From positions 1 through 11,910 of the forward strand of contig JAQSXU010000205.1 in the NCBI GenBank assembly GCA_029256485.1: DNA of 11,910 bases, given 5' to 3'. Position numbers and translations under genes: made by a program. The notes below the pieces were generated by a model. It searched no databases and had not been told where the DNA came from. It saw only the letters and a program-made list of their open reading frames with translations. Positions 3,023 to 11,334 of this stretch are shown in pieces. This stretch comes from Clostridiaceae bacterium. Its GTDB lineage: Bacteria; Bacillota_A; Clostridia; Clostridiales; Clostridiaceae. Within the stretch, counting starts at the first letter, position 1; every line of letters starts with the position of its first letter.

Positions 3023-3025
3023 ATG

Positions 3026-3057
3026 TTTACAATTTCTTACCTTTATATTAATATAAT
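3026..3057 (+). promoter_or_regulatory. Possible promoter of the moron SGNH gene
   Basis: TTTACA (3026-3031) and a perfect TATAAT (3052-3057) lie in the short gap after the fibre stop codon. The spacing is 20 nt, longer than the ideal 17, so the -35 assignment is weak. The -10 is 35 nt upstream of the gene start and correctly oriented. Confidence 0.35.
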
Positions 3058-3091
3058 AGTAAAACATACTAGTATAAAGGGAGATAAACAT

Positions 3092-3775
3092 ATGAATAAA
3101 AAAAACATTACATTGGTAGTATCTATAATATTTAACATATGCTTTATAATATCATTATATGTAATTCATTTAAATGGTGGACTGCAATGGATTAAAAATA
3201 AAAACATTATAGATACTCCGTATTATTTAGCAAAGGAAAGTCAATTTGAAACTTTAAATATAAAAAATTCAGATTTTGTGTTTTTGGGGGATAGTATTAC
3301 AAATAGATGTGAATGGAGCGAATTATTTAATAATCCAAACATAAAAAATAGAGGTCTTGATGGAGATACCACAGATGGCATCTTAAACAGATTAGATAAT
3401 ATTACTAAAGGTCAGCCTAAAAAAATATTTCTTATGATAGGAATAAATGATTTTTTACAAAAGAAAAATACTAACTATGTGTTAAACAATTATAAAAAAA
3501 TCCTAACAGAAATACAAAGTAAATCTCCGAATACAATTATTTATGTACAAAGTACTCTTCCAAATAATAATGTAAAATCAAATAATAATATTATTAATTT
3601 GGATAATGGATTAAAAAAACTAACTACTAGCAAAATCATCTATGTAGATTTATTTAATAAATTTAAAGACAATGGTAAATTATCAAATAAATATACTTTT
3701 GATGGAACACACTTAAATGGACAAGGATATTTAATTTGGAAACAAGCTATTGAGCAATATGTTAATACACAATAG
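3092..3775 (+). CDS. Membrane-anchored SGNH/GDSL-family hydrolase (moron-like)
   Basis: A 227-aa esterase-type protein. The ATG at 3092 is chosen because it follows AAGGGAG (3078-3084) at 7 nt; the same frame opens 23 codons earlier at 3023, but that start has no SD. Residues ~6-27 are one hydrophobic helix preceded by KK, a signal anchor placing the enzyme outside the membrane. The catalytic domain is complete: GDS 66-68 (Ser68), block II NRGLDGDTT, GIND with Asn119, and DGTH with Asp204 and His207. The closest family by motif is the PAF-acetylhydrolase/lysophospholipase-like GDSL group (PF13472 type). It sits between two virion genes, with a possible promoter before it and a strong hairpin terminator after it, the layout of a moron. 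Being membrane-anchored it is unlikely to be a virion part. It may deacylate host surface polymers in the lysogen, for example to block superinfection (inference). Confidence 0.85.
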   Translation: MNKKNITLVVSIIFNICFIISLYVIHLNGGLQWIKNKNIIDTPYYLAKESQFETLNIKNSDFVFLGDSITNRCEWSELFNNPNIKNRGLDGDTTDGILNRLDNITKGQPKKIFLMIGINDFLQKKNTNYVLNNYKKILTEIQSKSPNTIIYVQSTLPNNNVKSNNNIINLDNGLKKLTTSKIIYVDLFNKFKDNGKLSNKYTFDGTHLNGQGYLIWKQAIEQYVNTQ

Positions 3776-7684: not shown

Positions 7685-8347
7685 TTAACCCTTAATTATT
7701 TTATCAATATATTTATATGTCATAGGAGCGCGAATTTTTAATATTTCCTTTGATTCTTTACTGTTAAAATATAATGCAAAGCATTCAGTAAAATATTCGT
7801 CACTGTACATTGCATAATAATTTAAATAAGCACCACTAACATTTTTAAATACATCTGTATTGAATAGTTTTCTATTCTCTTGTATAAATGCTTTAACAAA
7901 ATCAGCACTACCACTGTATATTAGATTATCATCAACGGTATGTCCTATTTCATGTAATAAAGTAATACTATCACCTTGAGTTAATAGTACGTCATCAGTT
8001 TTAAAGTTCTTTGGCAATTGGCTGTGGACTATAGTAATTCTTTTCTGTTCGGGATCATTTAATCCTTGTGCTAAATTAGTTTTGTTACCTTTTAAATGTA
8101 TTAAATCCTTTTGCAATTTAATAGTATAGCCCTTATCATATAATTTATACTTTATATTTTGTGGTAGGTTATTTGCTTTGTTTAAGGCATCTTGCATAGT
8201 TTTTATATTACTGATAGATATACTATCACTTGTAATTAAATTGCTAATTTTAAGTGTTTCAGCTTGTACAGAAGATGCTATAAGTGTATTTGGTATAAAT
8301 AAAATCAAGATTATAATTATAGAAATTACAGTTATTTTTTTATTCAT
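7685..8347 (-). CDS. Secreted zinc metalloprotease, Pro-Pro endopeptidase/ATLF-like
   Basis: A 220-aa exported protease. Residues 1-~29 are a signal peptide (MNKK, a long I/L-rich core, then a probable cleavage after VQA at ~29). HEIGH at 132-136 gives His132, Glu133 and His136, and YSDEYFTE gives Tyr181 and Glu188. This Y-x6-E pair is the arrangement of the catalytic Tyr and third zinc ligand in C. difficile PPEP-1, a protein also 220 aa long as I recall it. The C-terminal APMTYKYIDKI resembles that family's end. Characterised members cut between prolines in surface adhesins; the substrate here is unknown, and no Trp is present in the stretch before HExxH where PPEP-1 has a substrate-loop Trp. 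SD AAGGAGTG (8353-8360) precedes the ATG by 5 nt. Position between lysis genes and integrase is typical for lysogenic-conversion cargo. Confidence 0.8.
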   Translation of the reverse strand: MNKKITVISIIIILILFIPNTLIASSVQAETLKISNLITSDSISISNIKTMQDALNKANNLPQNIKYKLYDKGYTIKLQKDLIHLKGNKTNLAQGLNDPEQKRITIVHSQLPKNFKTDDVLLTQGDSITLLHEIGHTVDDNLIYSGSADFVKAFIQENRKLFNTDVFKNVSGAYLNYYAMYSDEYFTECFALYFNSKESKEILKIRAPMTYKYIDKIIKG

Positions 8348-8417: not shown

Positions 8418-9893
8418 CTAGAGAAAAGTTATTTTTAGTTCTCCATTAAACGGATTATATGTTATTTCTTTAAAAATATTTTTTATCAATACTCTTTTTT
8501 TATTTAAATCAGTTTCATTTATTATTGTTTGAATGTTTTCAAATACATAGTCTTGACCGAAGCTATTATTTTCTAAACATTCAAGTTCCTCATTTTCAAG
8601 TTGCAATTTTAAGTTCGTATTTTCTTTTGTAATATCTTCTAATCTTTTAGATACGTTTTTACCAGCTTCATTAGATAATATTGCTAGTTTATCTATAAGG
8701 TTATTAATCATTATTTCATTTTTGCTGATTGATTTTTTTAGTTTTTTTATTGAATTGCTATTATTGGAAACATGGTTTTCGTTATATTGTTTTAGGAATT
8801 TCTGTTTGTTCTTTAGTGATACGAGAAAATTATCAATCTCCTTTTCTATAATTATTGAATTAATATATTTGTTATTTTTGCATTTATTTGCAGTTTTTTG
8901 AGTTCTTTGCAACCTATTGCTACACACATAATATGTATTTTTCTTTGAATTAGCAATTATATAATACCCGCCACAATGTGGACATTTTAAAAAACTAGAT
9001 AACCAAAATATATTACTACATCTTTTTAGGTTTTTTTCAGCTACTTCATCAAGCCTATGCTGAATATTTAACCATGTTGTCGCATCTACTATTGCATTAT
9101 GCTTACTAACAATAGCAATGTTGGTTTCTTTGTTAGAAACATTATAAGTAAGATAACCGCATCCATTGGGTTCTCCAACAGTTTCCCATCCATGCTGATT
9201 AAGATATTCATTTACCCTTTCACATGACTGGACATATATAGGACTTTGCAGCATTCTTCTTAACATATTTGGATTGTTATTATCACTTTTAAAATATTTC
9301 CTTACTGTACCATATAAACTATAAAGGCTAGGTTCTTTCAAATATGAATAGAATAAATCTTTTATAAAATTTTCATCTTCTAATTCTAAATAACTTTTCC
9401 CATCTATTTTGGTTACCTTGTACCCTTTTGCCACTTTTCCACCAGTAAAACAACCCTTTTTAGCAAGATTAAGCATAGCATCTTTAACTCTTTCCGCTAT
9501 AGTTTCACGCTCTAATTGTGCAAATACAGAAGCAAAATATAGCATTGCTCTGCCCATAGGTGTTGTTGTGTCGTATTTATCTTTAACACAAACAAAATCT
9601 ATAGTCTTATTCTCTAGCAATTCAAAAAAATCTGCTATATCAATTACTTTTCTGCTTATTCTATCCAATTTATAACATACTATAGTGTCAAAAATATTTA
9701 ATTTAAGTTTTTTATTTAATAACTGGAAAGCTGGTCTTTCTATTGTTGCACCACTATAACCATCATCTGAAAATACTTCAAATTCACATTTTTCATCTGC
9801 AAAATAATTTTTACACATTTCTGTTTGCGTTTCTATAGATACACTATCCTTTACTTCCACTGATTTCCTAACGTATATTGCTATCTTCTTCAT
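8418..9893 (-). CDS. Large serine recombinase (phage integrase)
   Basis: A 491-aa site-specific recombinase that would integrate or excise the phage. The N-terminal resolvase domain (~1-145) starts KKIAIYVRKS with catalytic Ser11, and carries the DDGYSGATIERPAF and KLDRISRK blocks and the long helix with FAQLERETIAERV. The recombinase domain follows (~150-290; GKVAKGYKV, LRRMLQSPIY). A zinc ribbon uses Cys304, Cys307, Cys324 and Cys338. Residues ~370-460 form the Lys/Glu/Asn-rich coiled coil typical of large serine integrases, with a short C-terminal tail. The length is normal for the family and the gene looks intact. SD GAGGTGAT (9904-9897) precedes the ATG by 3 nt. A hairpin terminator lies just upstream, so transcription probably starts within or near it. 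Phage genes are found on both sides, and attP is expected next to this gene. Confidence 0.92.
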   Translation of the reverse strand: MKKIAIYVRKSVEVKDSVSIETQTEMCKNYFADEKCEFEVFSDDGYSGATIERPAFQLLNKKLKLNIFDTIVCYKLDRISRKVIDIADFFELLENKTIDFVCVKDKYDTTTPMGRAMLYFASVFAQLERETIAERVKDAMLNLAKKGCFTGGKVAKGYKVTKIDGKSYLELEDENFIKDLFYSYLKEPSLYSLYGTVRKYFKSDNNNPNMLRRMLQSPIYVQSCERVNEYLNQHGWETVGEPNGCGYLTYNVSNKETNIAIVSKHNAIVDATTWLNIQHRLDEVAEKNLKRCSNIFWLSSFLKCPHCGGYYIIANSKKNTYYVCSNRLQRTQKTANKCKNNKYINSIIIEKEIDNFLVSLKNKQKFLKQYNENHVSNNSNSIKKLKKSISKNEIMINNLIDKLAILSNEAGKNVSKRLEDITKENTNLKLQLENEELECLENNSFGQDYVFENIQTIINETDLNKKRVLIKNIFKEITYNPFNGELKITFL

Positions 9894-9910
9894 ATAATCA
9901 CCTCGTGTTT

Positions 9911-10113: not shown

Positions 10114-10353
10114 TCACCTCATGTCAATATTATCAATTTCACATTCGCTACAAAAATCCACTAGCAGATATGGACATGCATTAAGAACCAAAGCAATTCT
10201 TAAGATTAAATATAAATTCGGATGCCGATCCAAATCTTCTAACCTAGAGATATAACTTTGTTTTACTCCAATCTTTTCTGCTAGTTGTTTTTGAGTTAAT
10301 TTACGTTCCAATCTAGCTTGTTTTATGTTCAACTTAAATCTAACCACCACCAT
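10114..10353 (-). CDS. Small Cro/CI-type HTH transcriptional regulator
   Basis: A 79-aa protein that is essentially one lambda-repressor-like HTH domain: IKQARLERKLTQKQLAEKIG, recognition region VKQSYISRLE, and a last helix LILRIALVLNACPYLLVDF. A short acidic tail follows. No SD precedes the ATG; instead TATAAT ends only 10 nt upstream, which suggests a leaderless transcript. The next ORF, an RHH protein, is 5 nt downstream. A 17-bp inverted repeat lies in its promoter and could be its own operator. It may be a second regulator controlling integration genes, separate from the main repressor at 10721-11161. The start could be a few codons further in (GTG or TTG), since the family often begins near residue 4. 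Confidence 0.75.
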   Translation of the reverse strand: MVVVRFKLNIKQARLERKLTQKQLAEKIGVKQSYISRLEDLDRHPNLYLILRIALVLNACPYLLVDFCSECEIDNIDMR

Positions 10354-10517: not shown

Positions 10518-10546
10518 TTGACATTATTTTTGGAAAGTTATAGAAT
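10518..10546 (+). promoter_or_regulatory. Strong sigma-A promoter of the 36-aa ORF
   Basis: Consensus TTGACA (10518-10523), a 17-nt spacer and TAGAAT (10541-10546, 5/6). The start site is predicted near 10553, at the edge of the LexA box. Confidence 0.75.
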
Positions 10547-10553
10547 AATTTTA

Positions 10554-10565
10554 GAACATATGTTC
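10554..10565. promoter_or_regulatory. LexA (SOS) box
   Basis: GAACATATGTTC is a perfect palindrome matching the Gram-positive LexA/DinR consensus GAACNNNNGTTC. It lies at the predicted start site of the promoter, a position where bound LexA would block transcription until DNA damage. Confidence 0.75.
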
Positions 10566-10600
10566 GCATAATAAACGAATAATATTAGGGGGTAATTCTT

Positions 10601-10711
10601 ATGGAAACAAAAGAAACTATTAAAGAGATTATAGAAAAGTATTATGAAGACTTAGAATTAGTTGATATGGAATTTGTTGTAAAAAAAATAAGGCAAAGGT
10701 TAATTCATTGA
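10601..10711 (+). CDS. 36-aa micro-ORF under LexA-box control
   Basis: METKETIKEIIEKYYEDLEL... is 36 aa, charged and probably one or two helices, ending IRQRLIH. The ATG follows AGGGGG (10587-10592) at 8 nt, a strong SD. Upstream are a near-consensus promoter and a perfect LexA box, so expression should rise with DNA damage. The gene converges on the phage repressor gene, and its last codons form part of that gene's terminator hairpin. No family is recognised. LexA-controlled small antirepressors are known in other temperate phages (for example Gifsy prophages, and Tum of phage 186), so an antirepressor role is a reasonable guess. No homology supports it, and an antisense role of the transcript is an alternative. 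Confidence 0.6.
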   Translation: METKETIKEIIEKYYEDLELVDMEFVVKKIRQRLIH

Positions 10712-10725
10712 ACCTTTGCCTTATT
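10681..10725 (-). terminator. Terminator of the repressor gene
   Basis: A 15-bp stem (AATAAGGCAAAGGTT with AACCTTTGCCTTATT, 10687-10701 and 10711-10725) has a 9-nt loop and an eight-T run on the minus strand (10688-10681). On the plus strand the following sequence is poor in T until a run about 8 nt further on, so it mainly serves the minus-strand transcript. Confidence 0.85.
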
Positions 10726-11161
10726 CACTAGATTTTTTAAGGTTATTATTTAGTTTTGCATCAAGTTTTATCGCTTCTTCTAATAGTTTGAGGTCAGATG
10801 ATGACATATTGCCTTCTTCATCTATTATTCCTTCTTGTATTAACCTTTTAACAAGTAGATCTGTTACAGTTTGAGAAGTTGGCTTATTAGCATCTTCTTT
10901 ATTAGAGTTTAGATAAGTTTCTTTTAAAGCCTTAGCAACAGTTAGTTCTTTATCTTCTTTAATCTCACTTGTATTTGTTAAATCACTTACAGAGCATCTT
11001 AAAGCTTTAGCAAGTTTATCTAATACATCTAAAGAAGGATTATTCATCTTTCCGTTTTCAATTCTATTTAAATATTCATAAGTGATGTTAGCCAGCTTCG
11101 CCAATGTGCGCTGGTTGATATCCATTTTTTCTCTAATTTTTTTTATATTATTACCTATCAT
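10721..11161 (-). CDS. Phage repressor, Cro/CI HTH family, without S24 self-cleavage domain
   Basis: A 146-aa regulator. The HTH domain spans ~1-66: MIGNNIKKIREKMDINQRTL, then ANITYEYLNRIENGKMNNPSL and LAKALRCSVSDL. The rest is a charged, helical tail (TVTDLLVKRLIQEGIIDEEG, then LKLLEEAIKLDAKLNN) that probably oligomerises. It has no peptidase S24 region, which CI/LexA-type repressors use for RecA-stimulated cleavage. ATG 11161 is preferred because AAGGAAGG lies 7-8 nt before it; the frame opens ten codons earlier with a TTG that lacks an SD. The gene faces the early region across a divergent control region holding three copies of one 14-bp operator, one of them just before its own SD. This is the likely lysogeny repressor. 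Confidence 0.85.
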   Translation of the reverse strand: MIGNNIKKIREKMDINQRTLAKLANITYEYLNRIENGKMNNPSLDVLDKLAKALRCSVSDLTNTSEIKEDKELTVAKALKETYLNSNKEDANKPTSQTVTDLLVKRLIQEGIIDEEGNMSSSDLKLLEEAIKLDAKLNNNLKKSSE

Positions 11162-11176
11162 AACAATTACCTTCCT

Positions 11177-11190
11177 TGACTTATAGTTCA
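11177..11190. promoter_or_regulatory. Operator copy O3
   Basis: TGACTTATAGTTCA, an imperfect copy of the 14-bp operator, lies immediately upstream of the repressor SD, where bound repressor would limit its own synthesis. Confidence 0.5.
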
Positions 11191-11199
11191 ATCTTTATA

Positions 11200-11226
11200 T
11201 TTATAATATATCATATTATTTGTAAA
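11200..11226 (-). promoter_or_regulatory. Possible repressor promoter
   Basis: TTTACA (11226-11221) and TATAAA (11205-11200) on the minus strand, spaced 15 nt. The spacing is short, so the assignment is weak. Confidence 0.3.
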
Positions 11227-11272
11227 TTTAAAAGCTATAACGAGCAAAGAGCAGTATATTAAAGATGAATGA

Positions 11273-11286
11273 TGATTTATAAGTCA
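11273..11286. promoter_or_regulatory. Operator copy O1
   Basis: TGATTTATAAGTCA differs from O2 at one position and is centred 34 bp from it, about three helical turns, which suits cooperative binding by repressor dimers. Confidence 0.6.
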
Positions 11287-11305
11287 TATTCATTGTATAT
11301 TGACG

Positions 11306-11334
11306 TTGATTTATAAATCATTAGATTGTATTAT
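11306..11334 (+). promoter_or_regulatory. Early (lytic) promoter
   Basis: TTGATT (11306-11311), a 17-nt spacer and TATTAT (11329-11334). The -35 lies inside operator O2, so repressor would exclude RNA polymerase. Confidence 0.55.
11307..11320. promoter_or_regulatory. Operator copy O2 (perfect palindrome)
   Basis: TGATTTATAAATCA is a perfect 14-bp palindrome overlapping the -35 of the early promoter. It is the best copy of the consensus TGAYTTATARDTCA. Confidence 0.65.

Follow-up and report, generated by a model that had tools for sequence, protein, structure and literature searches.

A LexA-boxed micro-ORF convergent on an S24-less repressor gene in a clostridial phage: a candidate SOS-controlled antirepressor in a recurring arrangement

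Antirepressors under LexA control are known from the Gifsy phages, in which GftA, GfoA and GfhA are small proteins made under a LexA box, induction is LexA dependent and a frameshift pointed to the protein as the acting agent (PMC3121763), and from phage 186, in which LexA cleavage derepresses Tum, a phage protein that inhibits the repressor (PMC12637031). In the ImmR/ImmA systems a helix-turn-helix (HTH) repressor is paired with a dedicated phage-encoded inactivator, the metallopeptidase ImmA (PMC12637031). The transcription factor/small open reading frame (TF/smORF) modules of plasmid-like phages carry small open reading frames (ORFs) of little mutual similarity that inactivate a cI repressor without proteolysis; these are independent of SOS and driven by the partner transcription factor (PMC10432266). 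The protein gp7 of GIL01 is a small phage protein within the SOS circuit of a Gram-positive host and acts on LexA itself (PMC11323111). The element described here is a micro-ORF of 36 amino acids (aa), preceded by a LexA box and convergent on the gene of a non-cleavable phage repressor, in an 11,910-nucleotide (nt) stretch of DNA from a Clostridiaceae bacterium (assembly GCA_029256485.1, contig JAQSXU010000205.1), which is called the window throughout. To our knowledge, the way in which clostridial phages with non-cleavable repressors sense DNA damage has been little worked out.

As in the Gifsy phages, a small protein is encoded under a LexA box, and as with Tum, LexA cleavage is proposed to derepress a phage protein inhibiting the repressor. 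The micro-ORF is set apart from the Gifsy genes by arrangement and host rather than by direct comparison with the GftA sequence, as it abuts the 3′ end of the repressor gene and the host group differs. The likeness to Tum lies in the described mechanism, and here the protein has 36 aa and its gene converges on that of the repressor. Unlike the TF/smORF modules, the micro-ORF has a LexA box at its predicted start site. The proposed pairing of an HTH repressor with a dedicated inactivator recalls ImmR/ImmA, but a local ImmA profile detected no ImmA-type metallopeptidase beside the repressor in the window or in nine other micro-ORF loci. The class of mechanism is already known from Tum and the Gifsy antirepressors, and the arrangement in clostridial phages is a new variant of it; no earlier description of such a boxed convergent micro-ORF in these phages was found in the open-access literature, so far as its accessible portions extend.

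The reading preferred here, to which we give a probability of roughly two in three, is that the micro-protein is a LexA-controlled antirepressor, likely directed at the C-terminal part of the repressor, which would wake the phage upon host DNA damage. In the lysogen, LexA on the box would keep the micro-ORF off and the non-cleavable repressor would keep the lytic genes off. DNA damage would activate RecA and lead to cleavage of LexA, after which the strong promoter and ribosome site would yield the 36-aa two-helix protein; this would bind the repressor, most likely at its C-terminal helical part, and inactivate it, which would free the operators on the right-hand side of the repressor gene and let the lytic genes start. 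We infer LexA binding, SOS induction, micro-protein/repressor binding and repressor inactivation alike, the step from SOS control to inactivation being drawn by analogy with Tum and the Gifsy antirepressors.

A sequence-only reading of the window had described a consensus promoter, a perfect LexA box at its start site, a strong Shine-Dalgarno sequence and the convergent 36-aa ORF, all of which were confirmed (Table 1). The promoter matches the consensus at 11 of 12 positions and is the best of 17 sigma-70-type matches between positions 9900 and 11910, where 13.2 would be expected by chance at the same stringency. Within the box, GAACATATGTTC (10554–10565) is the sole perfect GAAC-N4-GTTC of the window, against a chance expectation of 0.04 per window, and the 14-mer AGAACATATGTTCG differs from CGAACATATGTTCG at a single, outer position. 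Judged by sequence, the promoter and box of the micro-ORF appear to have the LexA-control features of the LexA-controlled phage antirepressors.

Table 1. Coordinates of the micro-ORF element, the facing repressor gene and neighbouring features of the window.
Feature	Position	Strand	Basis
Sigma-70-type promoter of the micro-ORF, TTGACA-17-TAGAAT (predicted)	10518..10546	+	consensus match alone
LexA (SOS) box AGAACATATGTTCG at the predicted transcription start	10553..10566		8/8 core positions
Shine-Dalgarno sequence AGGGGG, 8 nt ahead of the ATG	10587..10592	+	read from sequence
36-aa micro-ORF, ATG at 10601; predicted two-helix protein, candidate antirepressor	10601..10711	+	ORF call, relative P0012, AlphaFold
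Strong hairpin at the 3′ ends of both genes, reaching into the micro-ORF end	~10687..10725		folding of both strands
Phage repressor, 146 aa: HTH (residues 1–62) and helical C-terminal part, without S24	10721..11161	-	Pfam, AlphaFold
Operator-like palindromes TGATTTATAAGTCA (11273–11286) and TGATTTATAAATCA (11307–11320), weaker copy at 11177–11190	11177..11320		pattern by eye
79-aa HTH protein, divergent from the micro-ORF	10114..10353	-	family match; similar proteins in L009 and L019
Large serine integrase	8418..9893	-	family match

The micro-protein was modelled by AlphaFold with helices at residues 2–14 and 23–35 (mean predicted local distance difference test score 80.6); the models rest on alignments of 4 rows for the micro-protein and 10 rows for the repressor, and yield helix positions only. 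A single relative was found among 5.8 billion proteins, namely P0012, with 83% identity over the 40-residue stop-to-stop frame. It sits on a 6,965-base contig, as does the repressor relative P0005, and as both contigs have 6,965 bases the two proteins are presumed to lie on one and the same contig. The statement of the sequence-only reading that the ORF belongs to no recognised family was borne out, there being no Pfam or PHROG match at an expectation value (E) of 0.01.

The repressor, likewise as first described, was matched in Pfam to HTH families but not to S24. In its nearest relatives (P0002–P0005), 41–48 of the C-terminal 51 residues are identical, compared with 25–33 of the 62 residues of the HTH domain. 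Its tail, IKLDAKLNNNLKK (10733–10771, minus strand), is invariant across all ten aligned repressors despite widely differing HTH domains. To the right of the repressor gene there are two operator-like palindromes, with a weaker copy at the repressor start, and these are putative operators; the pattern was picked by eye and written from the sites themselves, and its 16 matches with at most three mismatches, against 13.2 by chance, represent no enrichment. A scan with this pattern found no copy near the micro-ORF promoter, which, for palindromes so chosen, would fit LexA control rather than repressor control.

The recurrence of this anatomy was surveyed in loci gathered through relatives of the window integrase. 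The best 80 of 189 matches in named genomes and the best 80 of 572 in viral contigs were taken, together with 100 further regions from the upper part of the integrase matches listed in 206 genomes of the Clostridium luticellarii family; with the window, five phage or plasmid loci and locus L122 this gave 267 loci, or 234 once duplicates were removed. Using a profile built for the survey, 325 HTH ORFs were called in 137 loci. Small ORFs were required to be of 20–75 aa, to have a perfect 5-base Shine-Dalgarno match and to converge on the 3′ end of an HTH ORF, those converging on other ORFs of at least 100 aa serving as controls, and a LexA-like box was one with at least 7 of the 8 core positions. 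Such a box was found with 9 of 23 unique small ORFs convergent on HTH genes (8 of 22 without the window itself) and with 5 of 190 convergent on other genes (Fisher p 6e-7). Several cases were already known when this rule was drawn up, so the cleaner figure comes from loci retrieved once the anatomy had been defined, 4 of 13 boxed against 3 of 68 controls (p 0.011); a p-value obtained for 6 of 20 boxed included previously known cases, and the held-out figure is the 4 of 13. When small ORFs were ignored, 6 of 169 HTH ORFs had a perfect box within 300 nt on their 3′ side, although the box in L178 belongs to an ImmA-like gene, compared with 3 of 1302 among other ORFs; on the 5′ side of HTH genes the count was 2 of 171. 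Among the controls is a plausible micro-ORF without an HTH partner, a 57-aa ORF that follows a LexA-type box with a perfect core and converges on a 177-aa non-HTH protein (L133:5340–5513). By eye, the C-terminal half of this product resembles the micro-proteins of L009 and L195, with weak shuffle z values of 2.7 and 3.0.

Eleven loci including the window have a LexA-like box ahead of an ORF of 35–47 aa that converges on a repressor gene, six with 8 of 8 core positions (the window, L122, L019, L238, L004 and L331) and five with 7 of 8 (L195, L179, L134, L016 and L364). L331 and L364, the latter a human-gut phage fragment, were added after the main survey, and the start of the micro-ORF is uncertain in both. 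In the six perfect cases the box lies 155–205 nt past the repressor stop. By eye, the box of most of these loci overlaps or adjoins the promoter and is followed by a G-rich ribosome site, a strong ribosome site having itself been a condition of the survey rule. In the Terrisporobacter phage TPELB_ph1 (L004) the box before the micro-ORF is the sole perfect one in 36,206 bases, and the micro-ORF is missing from the annotated features. Clear mutual similarity of the micro-proteins was limited to the pairs L019/L122 and L331/L297 in a shuffle test, most of the others being without detectable homology, and ten of them besides that of the window had no Pfam or PHROGs match at E 0.01. A kinship of the L134 and L364 micro-proteins suggested by eye was rejected, as the pair was not among the best 14 of that test. 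Unboxed small ORFs convergent on phage-type HTH genes were also seen (L009:5392–5529, L007:1372–1476 and L407), and these are possibly the same device under other control.

No S24 domain was found among 13 partner repressors scanned in Pfam, a set that includes the repressor of the window and four that face unboxed ORFs, and lies outside L331 and L364. The S24 control was small: three S24 proteins identified by Pfam (22 of 23 long HTH ORFs scanned) and seven by eye, none with a boxed micro-ORF. Whether such an ORF always accompanies an S24-less repressor, as the sequence-only reading had asked, was answered in one direction only: the micro-ORF partners scanned lack S24, but the surveyed loci contain many S24-less repressors without such a micro-ORF, and for 45 of 185 HTH genes the neighbour is instead an ImmA-like gene.

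A natural recombinant pair is provided by L019, from Hathewaya massiliensis, and L122, from a genome of the same family. Their DNA homology (80.6%) spans the integrase, the box, the micro-ORF and the repressor C-terminus, breaking off near codon 59, which is the end of the HTH domain. The 68 C-terminal codons of the repressor show 17 synonymous and no nonsynonymous changes. For the micro-ORF, in the sole pair open to a test at the DNA level, the rates of nonsynonymous (dN) and synonymous (dS) change are 0.28 and 0.91, a dN/dS of about 0.3. By sequence comparison, this micro-ORF evolves like a protein gene and has travelled with the C-terminal domain of the repressor and not with its DNA-binding domain, a co-inheritance that an antirepressor of the C-terminal domain would predict. 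Amino-acid conservation of the ORF, the lack of which would have told against the sequence-only reading, is thus seen both here and in P0012.

ImmA-like proteins, a family of inactivators of ImmR-type repressors according to PMC12637031, are encoded in the same set of loci. For the 45 HTH ORFs mentioned above, out of 185 of 90–240 aa, the ImmA-like ORF is co-directional and no more than 900 nt away; a boxed micro-ORF accompanies 10 of the 185, and in no case do the two occur together. ImmA-like ORFs have a perfect LexA box near their start in 9 of 67 cases, compared with 3 of 886 for other ORFs (16 of 67 and 29 of 886 with a box of at least 7/8). No HTH ORF was detected in the 600 nt upstream of 14 of the 16 boxed ImmA-like ORFs, which leaves their tie to a particular repressor tentative. 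L178 (6454 onward) and L323 were rejected as boxes 3′ of a repressor, since the boxes precede ImmA-like genes of the same direction (L323 by eye). With slightly more confidence than doubt, we propose a modular SOS switch of clostridial phages in which a LexA box, an antirepressor of 35–47 aa and the repressor C-terminal domain would form a cassette with a shared hairpin end, the HTH (immunity) domains being swapped, and in which unrelated micro-proteins or an ImmA-type protease may occupy the slot of the LexA-controlled inactivator. On this view the micro-proteins would belong to a group of tiny SOS antirepressors, unrelated to one another, which gene annotation overlooks.

A number of results weigh against the antirepressor reading. 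Adjacency alone would also be expected to produce the co-inheritance of micro-ORF and repressor C-terminus, which rests on one pair. In the distant window-type relatives P0006–P0010 the C-terminal 51 residues (26–28 of 51) are conserved no better than the HTH domain, although the last 20 residues, unlike the rest of this part, are kept at 17 of 20 positions. L195 and L179 are weak members of the eleven, the former because its box is 134 nt upstream and the latter because its ORF overlaps the repressor gene by 48 nt and has no hairpin at its stop, and convergent micro-ORFs without a box exist (L009, L007, L274 and L407). The exclusion between ImmA-like neighbours and micro-ORFs is not significant (P of zero overlap 0.057). 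The L134 repressor, used as a query in 391 Clostridia genomes (30 best loci), recovered the anatomy with 1 of 32 testable HTH genes, this being the L134 phage itself; relatives of the window repressor in 206 Clostridium-family genomes gave 27 testable HTH genes, six of them already seen, and no new boxed case; and of 12 phage records examined among 148 with an L134-like repressor, one (L364) has the anatomy. The boxed micro-ORF is uncommon, and the wider searches yielded few extra cases.

The sequence-only reading had left it open whether the micro-protein or its transcript links SOS to the repressor. In the latter case the SOS-induced transcript would cross the hairpin into the repressor gene and silence it by antisense pairing or polymerase collision. 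The two genes are convergent with 9 nt between them, and the hairpin at their shared end (−19.7 and −20.3 kcal/mol on the two strands; z −5.5 and −5.7) is followed by an eight-U run on the repressor strand only, so that read-through from the micro-ORF strand is possible in the window. Against this, a hairpin at the micro-ORF stop, common to the repressor gene, was seen by eye in 11 of 13 folded loci (L297 and L009, both without a convincing box, among the 13), several with U-runs on both strands, and the ORF is conserved as a protein, at 83% in P0012 and with the low dN/dS of L019/L122. The hairpins thus disfavour the antisense branch, which we regard as improbable, while the recurring and enriched link of boxed ORFs with S24-less repressors, together with protein-like evolution, favours the protein branch.

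It is also improbable that the micro-protein is a corepressor or lysogeny modulator, acting on the phage repressor or, like gp7 of GIL01, on LexA, and made at the onset of SOS to damp or time induction. Small LexA-interacting phage proteins do exist, as PMC11323111 describes, and a positive cofactor, too, could be inherited together with the repressor C-terminus. Expression under SOS control nevertheless suits an inactivator better, and dissimilar sequences occupy the same slot beside S24-less repressors, with none beside repressors that have an ImmA-like neighbour.

Control of the micro-ORF by the neighbouring HTH gene (Table 1), as in the SOS-independent modules of Silpe 2023 and with the LexA box adding SOS input only, is a very unlikely account: there is such a divergent HTH gene in the window and there are similar ones in L009, itself without a LexA box, and in L019, but the neighbour is established in these three loci only and the box at the start site in the window is perfect. 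LexA-controlled small toxins exist and none of the micro-proteins could be assigned to a known family at E 0.01, yet it is just as hard to credit that the micro-protein is an SOS-induced effector unrelated to the repressor (a toxin, cell-division or host-takeover protein) lying there by chance, given the enrichment beside HTH genes rather than other genes and the hydrophilic character of the micro-proteins (grand average of hydropathy −1.0 to 0.0), unlike that of membrane toxins.

If the antirepressor reading is correct, a LexA box about 155–205 nt past the repressor stop together with a convergent ORF of 35–47 aa would predict SOS-inducible prophages, and the loci would supply a list of antirepressors that are as yet unannotated. 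The natural domain swap of L019/L122 would help to map the part of the repressor that the antirepressor touches. The proposal is directly testable in TPELB_ph1, which PMC11253131 gives as an active prophage on the basis of particle-protected DNA in a screen for spontaneous release.

Other searches gave little. No confirmed relative came from repressor, micro-ORF and promoter searches of viral contigs, from repressor alignment in genome contigs or from a micro-ORF search of phages and plasmids. A profile of four micro-proteins had matches in 54 of 206 Clostridium-family genomes (E up to 0.02), but most of the matches fetched were rejected because they represent a single conserved protein, its open frame spanning roughly 83–119 aa, which we take to be a spore protein; L094/L122 was the sole new relative. 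No second domain swap emerged when the L238 and L297 regions were used as DNA queries, the matches being mostly to the HTH part or to scattered short stretches, and a promoter pattern of L004, L134 and L364 found only L134 again among five viral stretches. Two further boxes were set aside, one that precedes a small ORF lying in front of an integrase-like ORF (L385) and a perfect one 288 nt from an HTH stop with no convergent ORF (L380).

The gene content of the window, read from ORFs and Pfam, marks it as a piece of a clostridial prophage or phage contig. Its genes run in the order tail genes, endolysin-like and holin genes, metallopeptidase, serine integrase, ribbon-helix-helix protein, 79-aa HTH protein, micro-ORF element, repressor and the first rightward ORFs. 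The closest relatives of the integrase are at 51–55% identity, including that of a Caloramator metagenome-assembled genome, with Clostridium luticellarii at 52%. Between the holin and integrase genes there is a 220-aa protein (7685–8347, minus strand) with a hydrophobic signal-like N-terminus, a HEIGH motif and a Pfam match to ATLF (E 2e-17); it is probably a secreted metallopeptidase and possibly a lysogenic-conversion gene product. A 250-aa ORF (3023–3775) has a membrane-like segment at its N-terminus, and both it and the end of the preceding 997-aa ORF presumably resemble GDSL-type esterases, a likeness noted by eye.
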